The notes beneath the pieces were generated by a model. The model made no database searches and had not been told where the DNA came from. It worked only from the letters and a program-made list of their open reading frames with translations. A program made the translations under genes and the position numbers. From assembly GCA_021812845.1 (NCBI GenBank), contig JAKAML010000020.1, positions 1-10,376 on the forward strand: DNA of 10,376 nt, written 5' to 3'. Of the stretch, positions 2,331-9,672 are shown in pieces (position 1 is the stretch's first letter; every line of letters begins with the position of its first letter). The DNA comes from Pseudomonadota bacterium (lineage in GTDB: Bacteria > Pseudomonadota > Alphaproteobacteria > Rhizobiales > Hyphomicrobiaceae).

Positions 2331-3215
2331 ATGACAGCCAGGAAGAAGCGCATCCGCAAGGCGGTGCTGCCGGTGGCGGGCCTCGGCACGCGGTTCCTGC
2401 CGGCGACCAAGGCGATGCCCAAGGAGATGCTGACGGTCGTCGACCGCCCCGTCATCCAGCACGTCGTCGACGAGGCGCGGGCGGCGGGCATCGAGCACTT
2501 CATCTTCATCACCGGCCGCAACAAGGGCGTCATCGAGGACCACTTCGACAGCCAGTTCGAGCTCGAGCGGACGCTCGCCGAGCGCGGCAAGAAGAGCGAG
2601 CTCGAGCTCCTGTCGCGCGATCTGCCCGACGCCGGCCAGACGAGCTTCACCCGCCAGCAGGCGCCGCTCGGCCTCGGGCACGCGGTCTGGTGCGCGCGCG
2701 ACATCGTCGGCGAGGAGCCGTTCGCGCTGTTGCTGCCGGACATGCTGCATCACGCCGACACGCCGTGCATGGCCGACATGATCAGGGCCTACGACAAGCA
2801 CGGCGGCAATCTCGTCGCGGTCTCGCCGGTGCCGAAGGACCAGACCCACCTCTACGGCATCGTCGGCGTCGAGAACGCCAAGGACAAGGTGTCGCCCATA
2901 ACGAAGATGGTCGAGAAGCCGCCGCGCGGCACCGCGCCGTCGAACCTCCATATCACCGGCCGCTACATCCTCCAGCCGGAGATCTTCGACCTCCTGTCGC
3001 AGCAGGAGCGCGGCACGGGCGGCGAGATCCAGCTCACCGATTCGATGATCCGGCTGATGGACGAGGCGCGCCAGCCGTTCCACGCCGTCCGCTTCGACGG
3101 CGACATCTACGACTGCGGATCGAAGATCGGCTTCCTGCTCGCCAACGTGGCCTATGCGCTCGCCCGCGACGACCTCGGCCCGAGCCTGAAGGCCGAGCTC
3201 AGGAAGATGGTGTGA
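2331..3215 (+). CDS. galU: UTP--glucose-1-phosphate uridylyltransferase (UDP-glucose pyrophosphorylase)
   Basis: Cytoplasmic nucleotidyltransferase that makes UDP-glucose and pyrophosphate from UTP and glucose-1-phosphate, the entry point to UDP-sugar, exopolysaccharide and LPS core synthesis. The 294-residue length matches the family. The nucleotide-binding 'AGLGTRFLPATKAMPKEML' is at 16-34, 'QQAPLGLGHAV' at 109-119, the metal-site 'LLLPD' ends at D137, and 'MVEKP', 'GRYIL' and 'GGEIQLTD' follow in the expected order. The ATG at 2331 is chosen over an in-frame start about 310 bp upstream because GAGGGA (2318-2323) lies 7 nt before it and homology begins here. Oddity: the last 59 bases of the gene lie within a 60-bp block repeated exactly at 7011-7070, at the far side of the TIR-STAND gene. 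The reading frame itself is intact. Confidence 0.96.
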   Translation: MTARKKRIRKAVLPVAGLGTRFLPATKAMPKEMLTVVDRPVIQHVVDEARAAGIEHFIFITGRNKGVIEDHFDSQFELERTLAERGKKSELELLSRDLPDAGQTSFTRQQAPLGLGHAVWCARDIVGEEPFALLLPDMLHHADTPCMADMIRAYDKHGGNLVAVSPVPKDQTHLYGIVGVENAKDKVSPITKMVEKPPRGTAPSNLHITGRYILQPEIFDLLSQQERGTGGEIQLTDSMIRLMDEARQPFHAVRFDGDIYDCGSKIGFLLANVAYALARDDLGPSLKAELRKMV

Positions 3216-3216
3216 G
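3157..3216 (+). repeat. 60-bp direct repeat, left copy (3' end of galU)
   Basis: This block runs from within the codon for the Ala of '..YALARDD' through the galU stop codon (3213-3215) plus one G. It is identical base for base to 7011-7070 in the same orientation. The flanks diverge at once on both sides (G before and A after here; A before and G after there). This copy is joined to the body of galU and is the functional one. It is read as the left attachment-type boundary of the cassette carrying the TIR-STAND gene. Confidence 0.97.
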
Positions 3217-3219
3217 AAG

Positions 3220-3238
3220 CCATCGACATTTGCGATGG
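3220..3238. repeat. Small hairpin at the left cassette boundary
   Basis: CCATCG and CGATGG form a perfect 6-bp stem around a 7-nt loop, starting 4 bp after the end of the left direct repeat. It could be part of an attachment site (arm or core-flanking dyad) or a weak galU transcript terminator; the following bases (TTCATTG) give no real T-run. The position next to the junction is the reason to list it. Confidence 0.35.
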
Positions 3239-3255
3239 TTCATTGACCGCGCCAT

Positions 3256-3306
3256 GACCGGACTTGCCTGACCCGGCGAAGGCCGGGGGCAGGCCATGGG
3301 GCGGTC
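3256..3306. repeat. Large imperfect hairpin (REP-like or terminator) after galU
   Basis: Inner arms GCCTG-A-CCCGGC (3266-3277) and GCCGGG-GG-CAGGC (3282-3294) pair around a GAAG loop. An outer GACCG (3256-3260) can pair with CGGTC (3302-3306). This is the strongest structure in the cassette's left arm and lies between two convergent genes, where a bidirectional terminator would fit. No T-run follows it, so it could instead be a dispersed REP-type palindrome. Other copies in the genome would decide. Confidence 0.4.
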
Positions 3307-3399
3307 GGAGCTCACGCTTTTCGACCGGAAAGCGGGCTCTCCTCCGGATCGGCTGACGTCCCGGGAGGTGGTGCGGTCACCAAGGTCGCGGCGCCGGGA

Positions 3400-6300
3400 T
3401 CAGACCTTGAGGCGGAAGCGGTCCATGAGTGATCGGCGCGAATGATCCGAGGGGCCGTCGCCGTAGTTCGAGGCGAGGACGTGGCCCCAGTTCAGGAGGT
3501 CGATCATGCCGTCGCCGCCGATGGCGCGCATGAAGGATCGCTCGTGGCGCGGCACGACCAGCACGAAGTAGTAAGCCCATCGACCGTTGCTGTCCTTGGC
3601 CTTCAGCTTGTGGACGCGGTGGCCGCGGTGGGAGACGAAGCGCTCGAGGAAGGTCGAAGGCTCGCCGACGCGCGGCTCCTTGCGCGTCGTGCCGTTCGGG
3701 TCGGCGGGCTCAGCCGCGATGCGTGACAGGAGCCGGCGGTCGCGCTGCCTGAGGCGGCGGAGCCGGCCCGCGTCCTGCTCGTCCTCGCCGCCCGCCAGCG
3801 GCGGCAGGACATCGAGCGCGCGGCGCGCCGTCTCGGTTCTCTCGCGCGACGACAGCGCCAGGAGCGAGGTCAGGGCGAGCGTCGGCAGAACTTCGCCGGA
3901 GACGTCGGCGGGCGGCCGGCGCAGGAGGGCGACCAGCGCGTCGTCGGCCGCCGACCCCTCGATCGCCGCAAGACGGCAGATCGCCTCCTCGCGGGTTTCC
4001 ACGCTGAGCGTCGGATCGAGCGCGGCGGCGGCCAGGGGCTCCGCGAGATCGCCGTCGCGGGCGCCGAGGCGGGCCAGGGCGATGGCGCAGCGTGGACTGA
4101 CGACGGCACCGGAGCGCAGGCGAATGGCGGTCATCGACTGCTGCCGGCGAGCGACCGAATCGGGATCGTCGGCGATGGCTTCGGTCTTGGTCGTGATCGT
4201 GCCGTCCGGCGGGTTGGCGCAGATCTCGTCGGCGCGCTTCGCCCAACGCATGAGCAGCGTATCGGGATCTTCCACAGCGAGCTGCATCTTCGCGAGCGAG
4301 AGCGCGATCCGATCGAGTACCCTGTCGTGCATCGGCGGGGTGCTGATCATGCGGGTGCCGGTCCGGCGGGCTTGGAGGAGGTACGTCATCTCCTCCAGGT
4401 TCTCCTGCCGCAGCCTCACCACCGGCTCGCCGCAGCCCAGGGCGTCCGTCAGCCATTGCAGTGCCCACGCCGCGGCGCTGGCCTCGAACCCGCCGCGGCC
4501 GGCCATCCCGATCAACTCGGCGGTGAGCGGCTGCAATCTCGTCTCTTCCTCCTCGTTCGCCGTCAGCACCTCCTGGAACGCGAGATCGAGAACCGAAACG
4601 GCAGCGGCGGCGGCGGCGACGGGGCTGCGGTCCTCTTTCATCGTCATCTGCACCTCGAGATACCGCTGGGTCTGGGTGCCGACCCAGTTCAAGCCGCTTT
4701 CGATAATCGGCCGACGGTAGCCGACTTCCGACGCGGGCAGGCCGATCCGCTCGGTGAAGGGCAGGGCGCAGATCGCGAGCGACCGACCGTCCGCTATGGT
4801 CGCGCTTTGTCGCGTCCGCTCGATCAATGGCTCGAAGAGCTGGCTGCGGTCGGCGCGGGTCAACGCGGCCTCGTCCAGGGTGCCGATCGCCTGCTCGACG
4901 ATCGTGGCGGCGATCTCGACGGGGACCGGCAATCCGTCCGCGATCGCATCGAGCAGCACCCGCAGGCGATAAGGAAGCGGACAGAGATCGGTCGGCTGCG
5001 CGACGGCACGGGTAGCGACGAAACGGGCGGTTTCGGGGTCGAGCATCTGCAAGGCCCGCGACAGCACCGGCAGCCAGCGGCGCCGGGTCTGGGCCGCGTC
5101 GTGATGGCCGCGAAGCTCGGAATGCAGCGCCTCCATCCGCTCGAACGGATCGGCGAACTCCTGCCGCTGCGGTGCGACGACCGCGTCCGGTCCACTCTCG
5201 CCGACCGGAAATGCGAGGGCCTCGGCGGCCAGTTGGCGATGCTCGCTCGGGTCGGTGAACGCCAGTCCCTGGATCGGGGAGCGCCGACCGCGGTCGATCT
5301 CCTGCGGGCGGAAGACGTGCGAGCGCGCGCAGATCGCGAGCGCGGCGCCGAGCGACAGCGATCCGAGCTCGGGCCAGGCTGCGCGACAGTCCGGCCACAC
5401 GGGATCCATCAGGCGGACGAGGTCGGAGCGGGAGAAGTACTCGCGTCCGGCCGCGAAGGTGCGCAAGGCCGTCGCGGCCAGAAGCTCGCGCAGGCCTTCG
5501 ATGGCCGAGAACTCCTCGGTCTCGGAAAGAACCTCGGTCAGATCGTGGTAGAACGGATCGACCGCCCATGACGGGCCCTCGCGACGGGTGAGGGGGAGCA
5601 CGTTGAGAATGAAGTGGGCGCTCCGGAATCGCGACGACTCTTGCAGGTTCTTGGTGACCTCTCCTTCGCCTCCGAGTTTGATCTTGGCGAGCAGACTGTC
5701 CTGTTGGCCGGTGTCGAGATCGAGGAGCTCGAACCGCGTGAACTTCGCGTATGGGAATCGCTTCTCGATGTCGCCGGTCGCGTTCCTGCTGCGGGCGGCC
5801 AGGACCGCCCGCGTGCCGGACCACTGCGTCGTTGCGGTCGTATCCGCCGCCGGGCTGCCCGACGTGCTCTCGCCCTTGCCACTCGGTAGCGCGGCGCCGA
5901 GCGCATCGAGGACACGGGTGATCGCCGCATCCGACCCGAGCCGGTCGACGTTGTCGAGCAGTACCAGCGTCGGCCGGCGGTTCGTGAGGTGGTTGTCGAT
6001 GGCGATGCGGACGCCTTCCGACTGCTCCGTGTTCAGGCGATTGCGCACGGGTGCGAGGGCGGCCTCGATGAGATCGCCTTTGTCGAGGCTTCGACCCGTC
6101 AGCACTGCGGCGTCGACGAGGAGCGGCAGGGCGCCGCCGTCGGGCCAGCCCGCGACTTCGAGCCGGCGTGGCTCGGAGGCCCGGTCCGTGCTGATGGCGT
6201 TCGTGAAATCCCCGGCGCACGCGAGAGCCATGTGACGGAGGGCGATGCTCTTGCCGCGGTTGCGTCCACCCAGAATCGTGGAGGCATTGCCTGTCCGGCC

Positions 6301-6906
6301 GTCGACGAGATGGCTGATGGTGCAGATGGCCGGCAGCCTGTCCTCAGACTTCGGCGGTCTCCTGTCGTGCTCCGTGAGCGGGCGCAGGCGGACCGCGCAA
6401 TATCCGTCTTCCAAGGTCAATCCGCTGCCGAGCTCGGTGTGCGCCAGAACGTTCTCGAGCGCGAGAGCATACTCCTGGAGCCTTCTCCGATCGTCGTTGA
6501 CCTGCTGCTCCGGGGTGGCGACGCCCTTGCTGAGGATCCACTGCAGGAGCGAGCCCAGGCTCGTGCTGTGCCTCTGGCTACCGCTCCAACCCCGGAAGTC
6601 GATGGCGTTGCCTTGCCTGTAGGCATCGGGAATGGAGCGCGACGGCTCGTCGATATGGATCGAGACGAGCTTCTTGTCGGCGAGGCGTGCCTCCTTGAGC
6701 ACCTCGGCACTCCCGATGGCGTCGCTCGACCAGATCACGACCACGGCCCTCGCGGCGTCGATCTCGCGCTCGATCGTCGGGCTCCAATCCACGTTGCCCA
6801 TCTGCCGGTCGCGAAAGACCGTCAGGCGAAAGCGCTCGAGCGCGGCTTCCAGGTCGATGGCGGTGCGCTCGTTCGCGCGCGAGTAGCTGATGAAAACGTC
6901 GGCCAT
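3400..6906 (-). CDS. TIR-domain NACHT/STAND-like NTPase with helical C-terminal region, putative anti-phage NLR-like protein
   Basis: The product is 1168 residues. Residues 1-128 are a TIR domain: 'DVFISYSR' at 3-10, 'FRDRQMG..W' at 31-41, and 'VVVIWSSDAIGSAEVLKEA' at 55-73, with E72 at the usual NADase glutamate position. An NTPase module follows: Walker A 'GGRNRGKS' at 213-220, 'LPLLVDAAVL' at 260-269, Walker B 'TLVLLDNVD' at 313-321, and a sensor-like 'AVLAARSR' at 367-374. The rest is largely helical and repeat-like, ending in a separate 89-residue module (about 1080-1168). By family knowledge, such STAND proteins bind an invader ligand, oligomerise and trigger the TIR domain to destroy NAD+. 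That function is inferred here. ATG 6906 is chosen because the TIR domain starts at once. The open frame continues upstream without support. It has no Shine-Dalgarno. It is the only gene between the two 60-bp repeats. Domain order is certain; close family (Avs, bNACHT or new) is not. Confidence 0.85.
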   Translation of the reverse strand: MADVFISYSRANERTAIDLEAALERFRLTVFRDRQMGNVDWSPTIEREIDAARAVVVIWSSDAIGSAEVLKEARLADKKLVSIHIDEPSRSIPDAYRQGNAIDFRGWSGSQRHSTSLGSLLQWILSKGVATPEQQVNDDRRRLQEYALALENVLAHTELGSGLTLEDGYCAVRLRPLTEHDRRPPKSEDRLPAICTISHLVDGRTGNASTILGGRNRGKSIALRHMALACAGDFTNAISTDRASEPRRLEVAGWPDGGALPLLVDAAVLTGRSLDKGDLIEAALAPVRNRLNTEQSEGVRIAIDNHLTNRRPTLVLLDNVDRLGSDAAITRVLDALGAALPSGKGESTSGSPAADTTATTQWSGTRAVLAARSRNATGDIEKRFPYAKFTRFELLDLDTGQQDSLLAKIKLGGEGEVTKNLQESSRFRSAHFILNVLPLTRREGPSWAVDPFYHDLTEVLSETEEFSAIEGLRELLAATALRTFAAGREYFSRSDLVRLMDPVWPDCRAAWPELGSLSLGAALAICARSHVFRPQEIDRGRRSPIQGLAFTDPSEHRQLAAEALAFPVGESGPDAVVAPQRQEFADPFERMEALHSELRGHHDAAQTRRRWLPVLSRALQMLDPETARFVATRAVAQPTDLCPLPYRLRVLLDAIADGLPVPVEIAATIVEQAIGTLDEAALTRADRSQLFEPLIERTRQSATIADGRSLAICALPFTERIGLPASEVGYRRPIIESGLNWVGTQTQRYLEVQMTMKEDRSPVAAAAAAVSVLDLAFQEVLTANEEEETRLQPLTAELIGMAGRGGFEASAAAWALQWLTDALGCGEPVVRLRQENLEEMTYLLQARRTGTRMISTPPMHDRVLDRIALSLAKMQLAVEDPDTLLMRWAKRADEICANPPDGTITTKTEAIADDPDSVARRQQSMTAIRLRSGAVVSPRCAIALARLGARDGDLAEPLAAAALDPTLSVETREEAICRLAAIEGSAADDALVALLRRPPADVSGEVLPTLALTSLLALSSRERTETARRALDVLPPLAGGEDEQDAGRLRRLRQRDRRLLSRIAAEPADPNGTTRKEPRVGEPSTFLERFVSHRGHRVHKLKAKDSNGRWAYYFVLVVPRHERSFMRAIGGDGMIDLLNWGHVLASNYGDGPSDHSRRSLMDRFRLKV

Positions 6907-6908
6907 GG

Positions 6909-6920
6909 CGCGGGTCCGCG
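6909..6920 (-). promoter_or_regulatory. Hairpin occupying the ribosome-binding position of the TIR-STAND gene
   Basis: On the transcript CGCGG-AC-CCGCG ends 2 nt before the ATG, exactly where a Shine-Dalgarno would be expected; no AGGAG-like word is found in the roughly 60-nt leader. With realistic folding it is a 4-bp stem with a 4-nt loop. It would keep initiation low, which would suit a toxic effector, but the effect is inferred. Confidence 0.35.
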
Positions 6921-6973
6921 AGGCGGGCTGGCTCGGAAAGGAATGCGAGGTGGAAATGTCAGTGTGGCGACTG

Positions 6974-7002
6974 ATTAGATCAGGTTTCGCAGGCAGTGTG
7001 AA
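6974..7002 (-). promoter_or_regulatory. Sigma70-like promoter of the TIR-STAND gene
   Basis: On the minus strand TTCACA (7002-6997, 5 of 6 to TTGACA) is followed by exactly 17 bp and TCTAAT (6979-6974, 5 of 6 to TATAAT). This sits in the most AT-rich stretch of the area and predicts a start near 6967, about 60 nt before the ATG. The -35 box begins 9 bp inside the right direct repeat, so the promoter belongs wholly to the cassette. Confidence 0.65.
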
Positions 7003-7010
7003 GAATCCAA

Positions 7011-7070
7011 CGCTCGCCCGCGACGACCTCGGCCCGAGCCTGAAGGCCGAGCTCAGGAAGATGGTGTGAG
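7011..7070 (+). repeat. 60-bp direct repeat, right copy (orphan galU 3' end)
   Basis: This is an exact copy of 3157-3216. It could encode '..LARDDLGPSLKAELRKMV' plus stop (7067-7069) on the plus strand but has no gene body in front of it, so it is an orphan galU tail. It ends 9 bp before the first base of the tadG-like stop codon. It marks the right boundary of the cassette. Confidence 0.97.
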
Positions 7071-7079
7071 GGCCGGGGC

Positions 7080-8321
7080 TCAGTTCACGAGCTGCGGCAG
7101 CGTCATGGCGCGGAAGCGGCGGAGCAGCGGGGGCAGCGGGGTCGAGCGGTCGAAATCCGACCGGACGGTCAGCGTGCCGATCGAGTTCAGCACCAGCCGC
7201 TGGGCGACGATCGCGGTGTAGCTCGCCGTCTGATTGGCGGTCGATCGGCTGTTGACGATCATCACCCCGCGCGGCAGGTAGACGGTGCCCTCGATGCGGG
7301 TGTCGCCGTCGCTGTTGATCGTGAAGGCGGGGGCGTCGGTGGTTGCGGTGGCGCGGCTCTGGAACATCAGGACGCCGGCGTAGGTTCCGGACCGCGGCGC
7401 GGTGACGTCCAGCGCGCTGTCGCTGTTGACGTTGAGGCGCGCGTTGGTGCCGGTGAAATGCAGCATCACCTCGGTGCCCGTGACCCGCGACAGCGAGTTG
7501 ACGAGGAACTCGCCGTCGCGGAAGACGTAGATGCCGGGTTGGAGATTGGCGGTGGCTCCGGAGTTGACGACGGTGTCGCCGCAGTAGACGCCGGGAGTCA
7601 TTGTCAGCGTCACCCCCGTGTTGATGGTGAAGTCGGTGTGGTTGCAGCCGCCGGCGGCGGGCTCGGGGAGTTCGAGAAGCGGGTCGGCCTGTCCGGCCTT
7701 GTCGTCGAGCGGCGGCGGCGTGGCGGTGCTGCCGGCGTTGAGGCGGCTGGTGCCGCTGACGTGCAGGCGGGCGGTCGCGACGTGGCTGTTGCTGTTGGCG
7801 AGGAATGCCTCGGTCGCGTGCATCGAGTTGACCTGGACGCCGCAGTCGGCGTCGAGGCGGCTGTCGCTGTTGACGTAGAGTCCGGTCTCTTCGGGCTCGA
7901 GCAGCAGGATGCACTGCGGCGCCACTTTCGCCGCCGCCGCCCGGGCGACGCTGCGTGCCTCGATCGGAAGCCGATCGATGCCGAGGATCTGGCTGATCGT
8001 GGTCGGCACGGCGTCCCGGGCGGAGACGGTCACCGTGTCTCCGGAGATATCCACCTGGGGCGTGGCGGCGCCAGCGTAGTTGCTGGCGAACAGGCGCATG
8101 GCGGTATCGACCCGCGACGGCTCGAGCGCGCCGACGGCAGCGAGTGCGGCGGCGTCGGTCGCCGCCGCCATTCGGCGCTGCGCGCTGGCGGCGCGGCTGT
8201 AGTCGAGGGCGATGCCGGTCACGCCGAGGAGCGCGGCGAGGCTGACGGAGAATACGACGGCAACTGTCCCGCGCTCGTCGCGGCGAAACTCGACAACACT
8301 ACGCATGGCACGCAAACGCAT
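7080..8321 (-). CDS. TadE/TadG-family (Tad/Flp pilus assembly) protein with beta-repeat region
   Basis: The product is 413 residues and is inner-membrane anchored with a large periplasmic part. 'RRDERGTVAVVFSVSLAALL' at 13-32 begins the Tad-type N-terminal segment, with one membrane helix at about 18-38 followed by 'ALDYSRA' and an Ala-rich stretch to 66. From about 148 to 385 a short motif of the form VNSxS recurs about eleven times (for example 149-154, 163-166, 272-276, 297-301, 355-360), which fits a beta-solenoid. Four Cys (137, 160, 226, 247) could form disulphides. 'PGVYCGDTVVNSG' and 'PGIYVFRDGEFLVNS' are typical of alphaproteobacterial members, which usually read VNGN rather than VNS. 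The ATG at 8321 is chosen for GGAG (8333-8330) 8 nt upstream and because the Tad segment starts here; an upstream in-frame ATG at 8621 has neither. No other tad genes are in view. Confidence 0.82.
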   Translation of the reverse strand: MRLRAMRSVVEFRRDERGTVAVVFSVSLAALLGVTGIALDYSRAASAQRRMAAATDAAALAAVGALEPSRVDTAMRLFASNYAGAATPQVDISGDTVTVSARDAVPTTISQILGIDRLPIEARSVARAAAAKVAPQCILLLEPEETGLYVNSDSRLDADCGVQVNSMHATEAFLANSNSHVATARLHVSGTSRLNAGSTATPPPLDDKAGQADPLLELPEPAAGGCNHTDFTINTGVTLTMTPGVYCGDTVVNSGATANLQPGIYVFRDGEFLVNSLSRVTGTEVMLHFTGTNARLNVNSDSALDVTAPRSGTYAGVLMFQSRATATTDAPAFTINSDGDTRIEGTVYLPRGVMIVNSRSTANQTASYTAIVAQRLVLNSIGTLTVRSDFDRSTPLPPLLRRFRAMTLPQLVN

Positions 8322-8604
8322 TTGAAAAGCTCCATCGGGGATGGCCCGAGCATGGGTGCCGGCGGGTAAAGCAATCGCAAATTGCCGCCCGAACCGACGG
8401 CCTCGTCGCCGATGCATGTCGATTGTGCGGAAATCGTTCGTCGATTCCTGCCGAGGGCGTGTGCCGGAATGACGCACTCGGACGGGTCCGACGAGGCGTG
8501 TCGCATTGCGGCAATCCGCCCCCGTGCCGCCTAGACGTTGGTCGCATAGTGTCGATTCTATCGGTGGATAGACGCCGACTATTCCGACCACGGGGAGACT
8601 GGAC
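8322..8604. promoter_or_regulatory. Divergent intergenic region with several dyads
   Basis: These 283 bp separate the divergent tadG-like and reductase-like genes. There are four dyads: GCAAT-N5-ATTGC at 8371-8385, TCGGAC-GG-GTCCGA at 8478-8491, ATTGC-G-GCAAT at 8505-8515, and CTATC-GGTG-GATAG at 8558-8571 nested inside ATAGT (8546-8550) and ACTAT (8578-8582). The first and third share the same half-site. These could be operators for one or both genes. No strong promoter boxes were identified, and no small gene. Confidence 0.4.
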
Positions 8605-9672
8605 ATGGCGCAATCGCGCATTCTGATCCTGGGGGCCTCCTACGGCTCCCTACTCGCCACCAAGCTCGCACTCGCGGGCCACGCGGTGCATCTGGTTTGC
8701 CTGCCGGCCGAGGCCGAGCTCATCAACACCGACGGCCTCCGCGTCAGGATGCCTTCGAAGGCGCTCGGGACCACGGTCGAGGTGCATTCCAAGGCGCTGC
8801 GGGGACCGGTGACGGCCTCGGCGCCGGACACGGTCGATCCGTCGAAATACGATCTCGTCTGCCTCGCCATGCAGGAGCCGCAGTACCGGCTCGCCGGCGT
8901 CCGCGAGCTGCTCGACCGGGTCGGCCGCGCCGGCGTGCCGACCATGTCGATCATGAACATGCCGCCCTTGCCCTATCTGGCGCGCATCCCCGGGCTCGAC
9001 ACGACACAGCTCCGCGACTGCTACGCCGACGCGACGGTGTGGGCCGGGTTCGACCCCGCCAACATGACGCTGTGCAGCCCCGATCCGCAGGCCTTCCGCC
9101 CGCCGGGCGAGCCGGTCAACGTGCTGCAGGTCAGCCTGCCGACCAATTTCAAGGTGGCGCGCTTCCCGTCCGAGAAGGCGACGGCGCTGCTGGCGCGGCT
9201 CGAGGCCGACATCGAGGCGGCGCGGTTCCGCCACGACGGCAAGGACGTCGAGCTGCCGGTCAAGCTCAAGCTGCACTCGTCGATCTTCGTGCCGATGGCC
9301 AAGTGGGCGATGCTGCTCACCGGCAACTACCGCTGCGTGCAGCCGGGCGCGCCACGCGCGATCCGCGATGCCGTGCACGCGGACCTCGCGGCCTCGCGCG
9401 AGATCTACGGCTGGGTGACGGGCCTCTGCCGCACGCTCGGCGCGGCGGCCGAGGATCTCGTTCCGTTCGAGAAGTACGCGGCGGCGGCCCAGGGGCTCGC
9501 GGCACCGTCGTCGGCGGCGCGGGCGCTGGCGGCGGGCGCGCCGTTCATCGAGCGGGTCGACCGCCTGGTGCAGCGGATCGCGCGTCAGAAGGCAATCCCG
9601 ACGGCGCTGATCGACGCCCAGGTCGCGCTTGTCGACCAGAAGCTCGAAGTCAACCGCAAGGCGGCCGCGTGA
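8605..9672 (+). CDS. Ketopantoate reductase-like (ApbA/PanE-type) NAD(P)-binding protein
   Basis: The product is 355 cytoplasmic residues. The N-terminal Rossmann unit reads 'RILILGASYGSLLATKLALA' at 5-24, with strand two ending in 'VHLVCLP' and 'YDLVCLAMQ' at 82-90, the position where PanE relatives have 'D.vivavK'. The C-terminal half is helical: 'LKLHSSIFVPMAKWAMLL' at 221-238 and 'FIERVDRLVQRIARQKAIPT' at 314-333, matching the layout of the ApbA C-terminal domain (a Glu/Asp pair followed by 'gvPT'). The usual GxGxxG/A is GASYGS here, so the second glycine is missing, and several usual PanE residues differ. True ketopantoate reductase activity is therefore doubtful. The substrate is unknown; opine-dehydrogenase-like enzymes are another possibility. 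GGGGAG (8592-8597) lies 7 nt before the ATG. Confidence 0.72.
   Translation: MAQSRILILGASYGSLLATKLALAGHAVHLVCLPAEAELINTDGLRVRMPSKALGTTVEVHSKALRGPVTASAPDTVDPSKYDLVCLAMQEPQYRLAGVRELLDRVGRAGVPTMSIMNMPPLPYLARIPGLDTTQLRDCYADATVWAGFDPANMTLCSPDPQAFRPPGEPVNVLQVSLPTNFKVARFPSEKATALLARLEADIEAARFRHDGKDVELPVKLKLHSSIFVPMAKWAMLLTGNYRCVQPGAPRAIRDAVHADLAASREIYGWVTGLCRTLGAAAEDLVPFEKYAAAAQGLAAPSSAARALAAGAPFIERVDRLVQRIARQKAIPTALIDAQVALVDQKLEVNRKAAA

Follow-up and report, generated by a model that had tools for sequence, protein, structure and literature searches.

A TIR gene, likely encoding a TIR-STAND receptor, between perfect direct repeats of the galU 3' end in a member of the Hyphomicrobiaceae

How can a single immune-type gene come to stand between two perfect copies of a housekeeping gene's 3' end when no recombinase gene lies between them? 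The question is raised by a stretch of 10,376 nucleotides from an alphaproteobacterium of the family Hyphomicrobiaceae (GenBank assembly GCA_021812845.1, contig JAKAML010000020.1), hereafter the window, in which the final bases of galU recur downstream and enclose one gene, for a TIR protein of 1168 residues. The explanation that we tentatively prefer, at a probability of roughly 0.4, is an integrase-less cassette that restores the tail of its target gene, has attachment (att)-like ends at the galU 3' end and is either akin to a cis-mobilizable element (CIME) or was moved in trans.

The two copies of the galU tail are identical at 60 of 60 bases, in direct orientation and at a spacing of 3854 bases, and the letters immediately beyond both ends differ between them, in agreement with the initial annotation, which had described perfect 60-bp repeats with unrelated outer flanks. 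The block consists of galU's final 59 bases plus one (stop codon at 3213-3215), and because it begins within galU and ends one base past the stop, galU is left intact. The annotation had also judged such a match to be beyond chance, and a chance origin can indeed be excluded, since in 100 order-1 resamples of the window no exact direct repeat exceeded 18 bases (mean of the longest, 14.4); with the second copy removed, the longest in the window itself was 17 bases. The own assembly, probably metagenome-derived and searchable over 2.04 Mb in 400 contigs (54% complete), holds two full 60-base copies only, the third-best match being 25 bases at 92%. As a base rate, exact direct repeats of at least 30 bases at a distance of at least 300 were surveyed in 153 sequences (2,418,736 bases, including 25,520 N). 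The survey gave 12 rows, one of which is the galU-tail repeat (60 bases); a repetitive stretch in L097 yielded four (36-47 bases), and L040, L057, L061 and L067 one repeat pair each (32-37 bases). Three further rows trace to a tandem duplication in a congener (G001; L198 5048-6240), with exact blocks of 64, 208 and 34 bases at a spacing of 853.

Between the copies lie 3794 bp (3217-7010), and with one repeat added the cassette measures 3854 bp. The TIR gene occupies 3507 of the 3794 bases (92%), which bears out the description of a single-gene cassette. No integrase or transfer gene accompanies it inside the cassette, and the arms to either side, of 183 and 104 bases, have no space for a recombinase gene, so that the absence of a recombinase asserted earlier also holds. 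A simple scan found no sigma-70-like site in the right arm, and no RNA families or tRNAs were found in the window. An insertion sequence or composite transposon was considered and rejected: the repeat ends are the galU tail, and there is no transposase gene between them. Around 3262-3304 the left arm has short matches in genomes G026 (two) and G006 (one); a 14-base core of this region also occurs in L049 and L064, and in none of the ten readable contigs of the own genome. The features of the locus are collected in Table 1.

Table 1. Coordinates of the galU locus and of the cassette within the window.
Feature	Position	Strand	Remarks
galU	2331..3215	+	Pfam NTP_transferase, 81.2 bits; 91% and 87% identical to galU of congeners G001 and G003
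Repeat copy 1	3157..3216	+	exact match to 7011-7070
Left arm, non-coding	3217..3399	.	183 bases; entire arm in own genome alone among 50
TIR-STAND-like gene, 1168 aa	3400..6906	-	Pfam TIR_2 plus Walker-like motifs
C-terminal module, ~82 aa, residues 1087-1168	3403..3648	-	conserved family without Pfam match
TIR domain, residues 4-107	6586..6897	-	Pfam TIR_2 (PF13676), 52.4 bits, cut-off 28
Right arm, presumably with the TIR gene's promoter	6907..7010	.	104 bases; own genome alone among 50
Repeat copy 2, probably galU tail of the pre-insertion site	7011..7070	+	right flank resembles galU/TadG-like junction of G003
TadG-like gene adjoining copy 2, outside cassette	7080..8330	-	Pfam Tad, 26.9 bits, cut-off 22.3
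ApbA/PanE-like gene	8605..9672	+	Pfam ApbA, 21.3 bits, just below cut-off 22.2; 83% identical in G001

The enclosed protein is likely a TIR-STAND receptor. Its TIR_2 match lies above the cut-off, and Glu72 falls at what we take to be the place of the catalytic glutamate of TIR NADases. The putative NTPase is suggested by a Walker A-like motif from residue 213 and a Walker B-like motif from residue 314, both recognised by eye, and by a relative of the same layout, P0036, with a sub-threshold NACHT match (21.4 bits vs a cut-off of 26.7). No NTPase family of Pfam matched the window protein even at E ≤ 5, the other row of that search being a sub-threshold PEX14-like match. Thus, of the label 'TIR-STAND' given in the initial annotation, the TIR part is secure (52.4 bits) and the STAND part likely only. 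The likeness to TIR-STAND (NLR-like) receptors lies in the TIR domain, the P-loop-like motifs and the large size; the differences are an NTPase too divergent for Pfam and a C-terminal module that has no Pfam match. A full-length structure model was unusable (predicted local distance difference test, pLDDT, 38.4). The three matches returned by PADLOC, the best of them to SAVED_TIR (E 7.6e-4), all fall within the N-terminal TIR part, and none is a full-length match to one of its anti-phage system proteins. Among about 5.8 billion proteins, three relatives were found, each covering 9-12% of the TIR protein; the search scored the 8000 candidates sharing most words with the first 500 residues and may have missed distant relatives. 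Among 397 genomes of the order (E ≤ 1e-20), the one match besides the gene itself was to the C-terminal module in G012, and viral contigs gave one pattern match and no relative. A second TIR protein, of about 407 residues, is encoded elsewhere in the own genome (L147; G000:C201).

What does the galU site look like where the cassette is missing? galU was matched in 60 of 60 relatives (E ≤ 0.001), its best-scoring named loci being those of Hyphomicrobium, Filomicrobium and Chelatococcus; G002 and G058 were matched weakly (best E 2.9e-5 and 4.2e-6), and these assemblies therefore show no full galU. From the 60 relatives and a scan of genome contigs, 112 oriented galU loci were obtained, sampled at one genome per species (at least one species is present twice, L034 and L125) and with many loci stopping at contig ends. 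None of the 112 carries a second galU tail within the stretch examined, and the suggestion that other cargo might be found between the same repeats met with no example there. Scattered matches of 13-22 bases to a 120-base query at 19 of the 112 loci were taken as chance or palindromes. An 87-base DNA query matched 31 of 103 genomes of the family, with two full copies in the own genome only; extra partial tail matches were seen in G016 (24 bases) and in the own genome (25 bases).

Two congeners have a readable galU, G001 and G003, the third, G002, showing no full one. Neither G001 nor G003 shows a TIR homologue (whole genomes, E 1e-20), and neither shows a second tail in the stretches examined. 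In G003, galU is followed by a convergent TadG-like gene and then by a gene that, judged from its translation, is mannose-1-phosphate guanylyltransferase-like; the end of the TadG-like gene lies 18 nt from galU there and 10 nt from copy 2 in the window. Judged from this arrangement, copy 2 and the TadG-like gene plausibly represent the old junction. The flanking genes of the window are collinear with G001 and, less completely, with G003. The empty site for which the initial annotation advised a search in relatives is thus seen in part: the TIR gene and second tail are missing from both congeners and galU abuts a TadG-like gene in G003, but the exact pre-insertion junction is not demonstrated, because the TadG-like match is partial and G003 is the sole locus of the 112 with a downstream open reading frame (ORF) that matches the window's TadG-like protein. 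The interval from galU to the manC-like gene differs in gene content in each of G000 (the own genome), G001 and G003. Of nine galU tails compared from relatives, two (L114 and L132) were dropped as shifted by one codon; the seven in register differ from the window tails at 14-24 of 59 bases, and copy 2 therefore has its origin either in the same species or in galU itself.

The preferred explanation takes these observations together as follows. A circular DNA with its own copy of the galU tail would have recombined with the tail in the chromosome; the incoming tail would complete galU and become copy 1, and the old tail would be displaced downstream as copy 2, beside the TadG-like neighbour. 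The recombinase, as for CIME-type elements, may have acted in trans or have been lost. The cargo would most likely be a TIR-STAND immune receptor, in which, by analogy with the family, the NTPase and C-terminal part would sense an invader, the protein would oligomerise, and the TIR domain would consume NAD so that growth stops. In PMC5704250, integrative mobilizable elements (IMEs) of tyrosine recombinases are described as having direct repeats of 8-60 bp and targets that include the 3' ends of housekeeping genes, and CIMEs as having lost the genes for integration and transfer while keeping attL and attR. A repeat of 60 bp at a housekeeping 3' end fits those IME ranges and thereby supports att-bounded ends, and the end of the repeat at the galU stop favours an att site as well. 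The cassette resembles a CIME in its flanking direct repeats, one of which completes a housekeeping gene, in the lack of an integrase and in its accessory cargo; it differs in that no parent IME or integrative and conjugative element (ICE) and no helper is known at galU, and in that the cargo is one gene. With its exact repeat, its intact galU and its cassette-free congeners, the locus looks like the integrated, target-restoring element with one defence-type gene and no recombinase that the initial annotation had described.

Several findings weigh against this explanation. The composition of the cassette is within the range of the host (193 1-kb windows from ten readable own contigs, 104,108 bases), and plasmid and phage records contained nothing that matched its DNA. 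Across the 112 loci, many of which are cut by contig ends, the 3548 ORFs within 12 kb downstream of galU yielded no tyrosine recombinase, so that no element is known to target galU; the search combined a motif scan, run without a positive control, with a profile from 18 tyrosine recombinases whose self-run was checked as a line count only. The presumed old junction is matched imperfectly: in G001, galU is followed directly by the ApbA-like gene with neither a TIR nor a TadG-like gene between, and the match of the window and G003 TadG-like proteins is confined to the N-terminal Tad segment (43% over 49 residues). Finally, both tails are identical; a separately evolving att site would require a source of the same species, and a fresh duplication needs no further assumption, so that perfect tail identity together with the missing integrase favours a duplication of the target.

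A helper acting in trans is nonetheless possible, as, among the tyrosine-recombinase matches listed, four in the own genome lie outside the galU locus; tyrosine recombinases occur in 60 of 60 relatives. As for a mobile source, phage records gave no match to the galU tail, the two partial matches being to the galU body only. A phage or satellite attP carrying the galU tail was tried and rejected: five viral contigs match a 20-base pattern, and none encodes any of seven window proteins tried. We also found no report of galU as an integration site in the literature, the papers examined not having galU as a site.

The main rival is an insertion with long target duplication, by which a defence unit would have entered without a site-specific recombinase and duplicated 60 bp of its target; we consider this possible, if on balance unlikely. 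Perfect identity, synonymous sites included, follows from it without extra assumption, and it accords with the lack of a recombinase both in the cassette and near galU of the relatives. Such insertion of restriction-modification (RM) units is reportedly the finding of Nobusato 2000 and Furuta 2010. The window shares with these units the absence of a recombinase and the setting of a single defence unit flanked by long direct repeats that derive from the host; it differs in that the cargo is a TIR protein, not an RM system, and in that the duplication ends at a stop codon. The end one base past the galU stop would be a coincidence under target duplication, whereas a tail-restoring att site predicts it, and a second insertion with a different duplication was not found (112 loci; 103 family genomes). 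In PMC3874152 and PMC3031569, RM systems are described as inserting with long, variable target duplications. Because these duplications and CIMEs are already in print, the proposal that the locus might reflect a so far undescribed route for defence genes is not supported.

Improbable, in our estimate, is homologous or illegitimate recombination, either of a galU tail of the same species joined to the TIR gene on a circle or linear DNA, or as a template-switch copy of the 60-bp galU tail that came to separate an already resident TIR gene from the TadG-like gene. The second tail, identical to the host's where relatives in register diverge, points to the same population or to galU itself, as this explanation would have it, but the end of the copy at the stop is left unexplained, and the TIR gene is absent at galU in both readable congeners. 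An assembly artefact might be suspected in so incomplete a draft and on a contig of just 10,376 bases, but is very unlikely, since 60 bases are shorter than usual short reads, both junctions into and out of the tail must exist in reads, the flanks are collinear with the congeners, and the sole alternative pairing, an empty galU plus a 3854-bp TIR circle, would be the same element in its other state.

The more novel part of the locus, and an unexpected one, is the C-terminal module of the TIR protein, which is small and strongly conserved. No Pfam family matched it in the window copy, in two small relatives or in the G012 copy, and a distant Runella copy gave a sub-threshold LicD match (16.4 bits vs 22.6). 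The 93-residue C-terminus, searched under a length limit of 0.55-1.75 times the query, retrieved 31 proteins of 85-128 residues, 30 of them starting with methionine and many on short contigs. A region search added two large TIR proteins, P0035 and P0036, that terminate in the module, as does a Nostoc plasmid protein of 1050 residues whose helix-turn-helix (HTH) and NTPase matches are all sub-threshold. Among the four large proteins the module is 47-73% identical, and only one of the six pairs of bodies matches (window and P0036, 24%, E 3e-14), the other five not being significant. The module is rare in the samples searched: it occurs in two of 103 genomes of the family, three of 385 in the class and three of 398 in the phylum, own genome included, and in two of 72,556 plasmid records; it was absent from the 50,697 phage records, and 38 pattern matches in viral contigs included no relative. 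Its predicted structure is confident (pLDDT 84.9), with no clear relative of the model among solved structures, and a literature text search with three peptide words found no description of it. Perhaps the module is the sensor of the TIR protein.

Small copies of the module were examined at eight loci (one in G012, one on the Runella plasmid pSP2_1, three in G528 and three in G720), and three of the eight lie beside type IV secretion-type genes. In G012, where the start of the copy is inferred, and on the Runella plasmid, a VirD4/TraG-type ATPase gene immediately precedes the small copy, the two ATPases being 36% identical over about 400 residues (E 8e-83). The pairs of ATPase and small module protein lie at L149 7045-8690, in a genome of the window's family, and at L223 2505-4318, on the Runella plasmid, the latter beside caspase-family genes. 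At one G720 locus (L218 631-1755) a divergent copy of the module adjoins a VirB8 gene (127 bits). No secretion-type neighbour was recognised, mostly by reading translations, at the other five loci. The Runella plasmid is typed non-mobilizable, with no other transfer-named feature in its first 30 kb, and the ATPase/module pair therefore need not belong to conjugation. It may be, though we regard it as a doubtful proposition, that the cassette moves an immune receptor whose sensor can be exchanged: the neighbour pattern would then make the module an integrated decoy of a small secretion-linked protein, used by receptors with unrelated bodies (three TIR proteins and the Nostoc plasmid protein) to detect elements that bear this machinery, and the receptor of the window would travel as a lone gene that duplicates or restores the end of a host gene. 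Literature searches on decoys in bacterial STAND proteins led to papers on fungal and plant NLRs and, more widely, on immunity topics.

Where we found long duplications of host genes described around lone defence genes, the cargo was an RM unit, and a literature search, judged by titles and abstract openings, turned up no case with a TIR or NLR-like gene. A TIR receptor framed in this way would widen the rule, and with it one could test how defence genes move when no recombinase is evident. As for the shared module at the C-terminus, it offers a group of bacterial NLR-like receptors a concrete candidate for their sensor, and the genes beside its copies elsewhere hint at what that sensor may detect.

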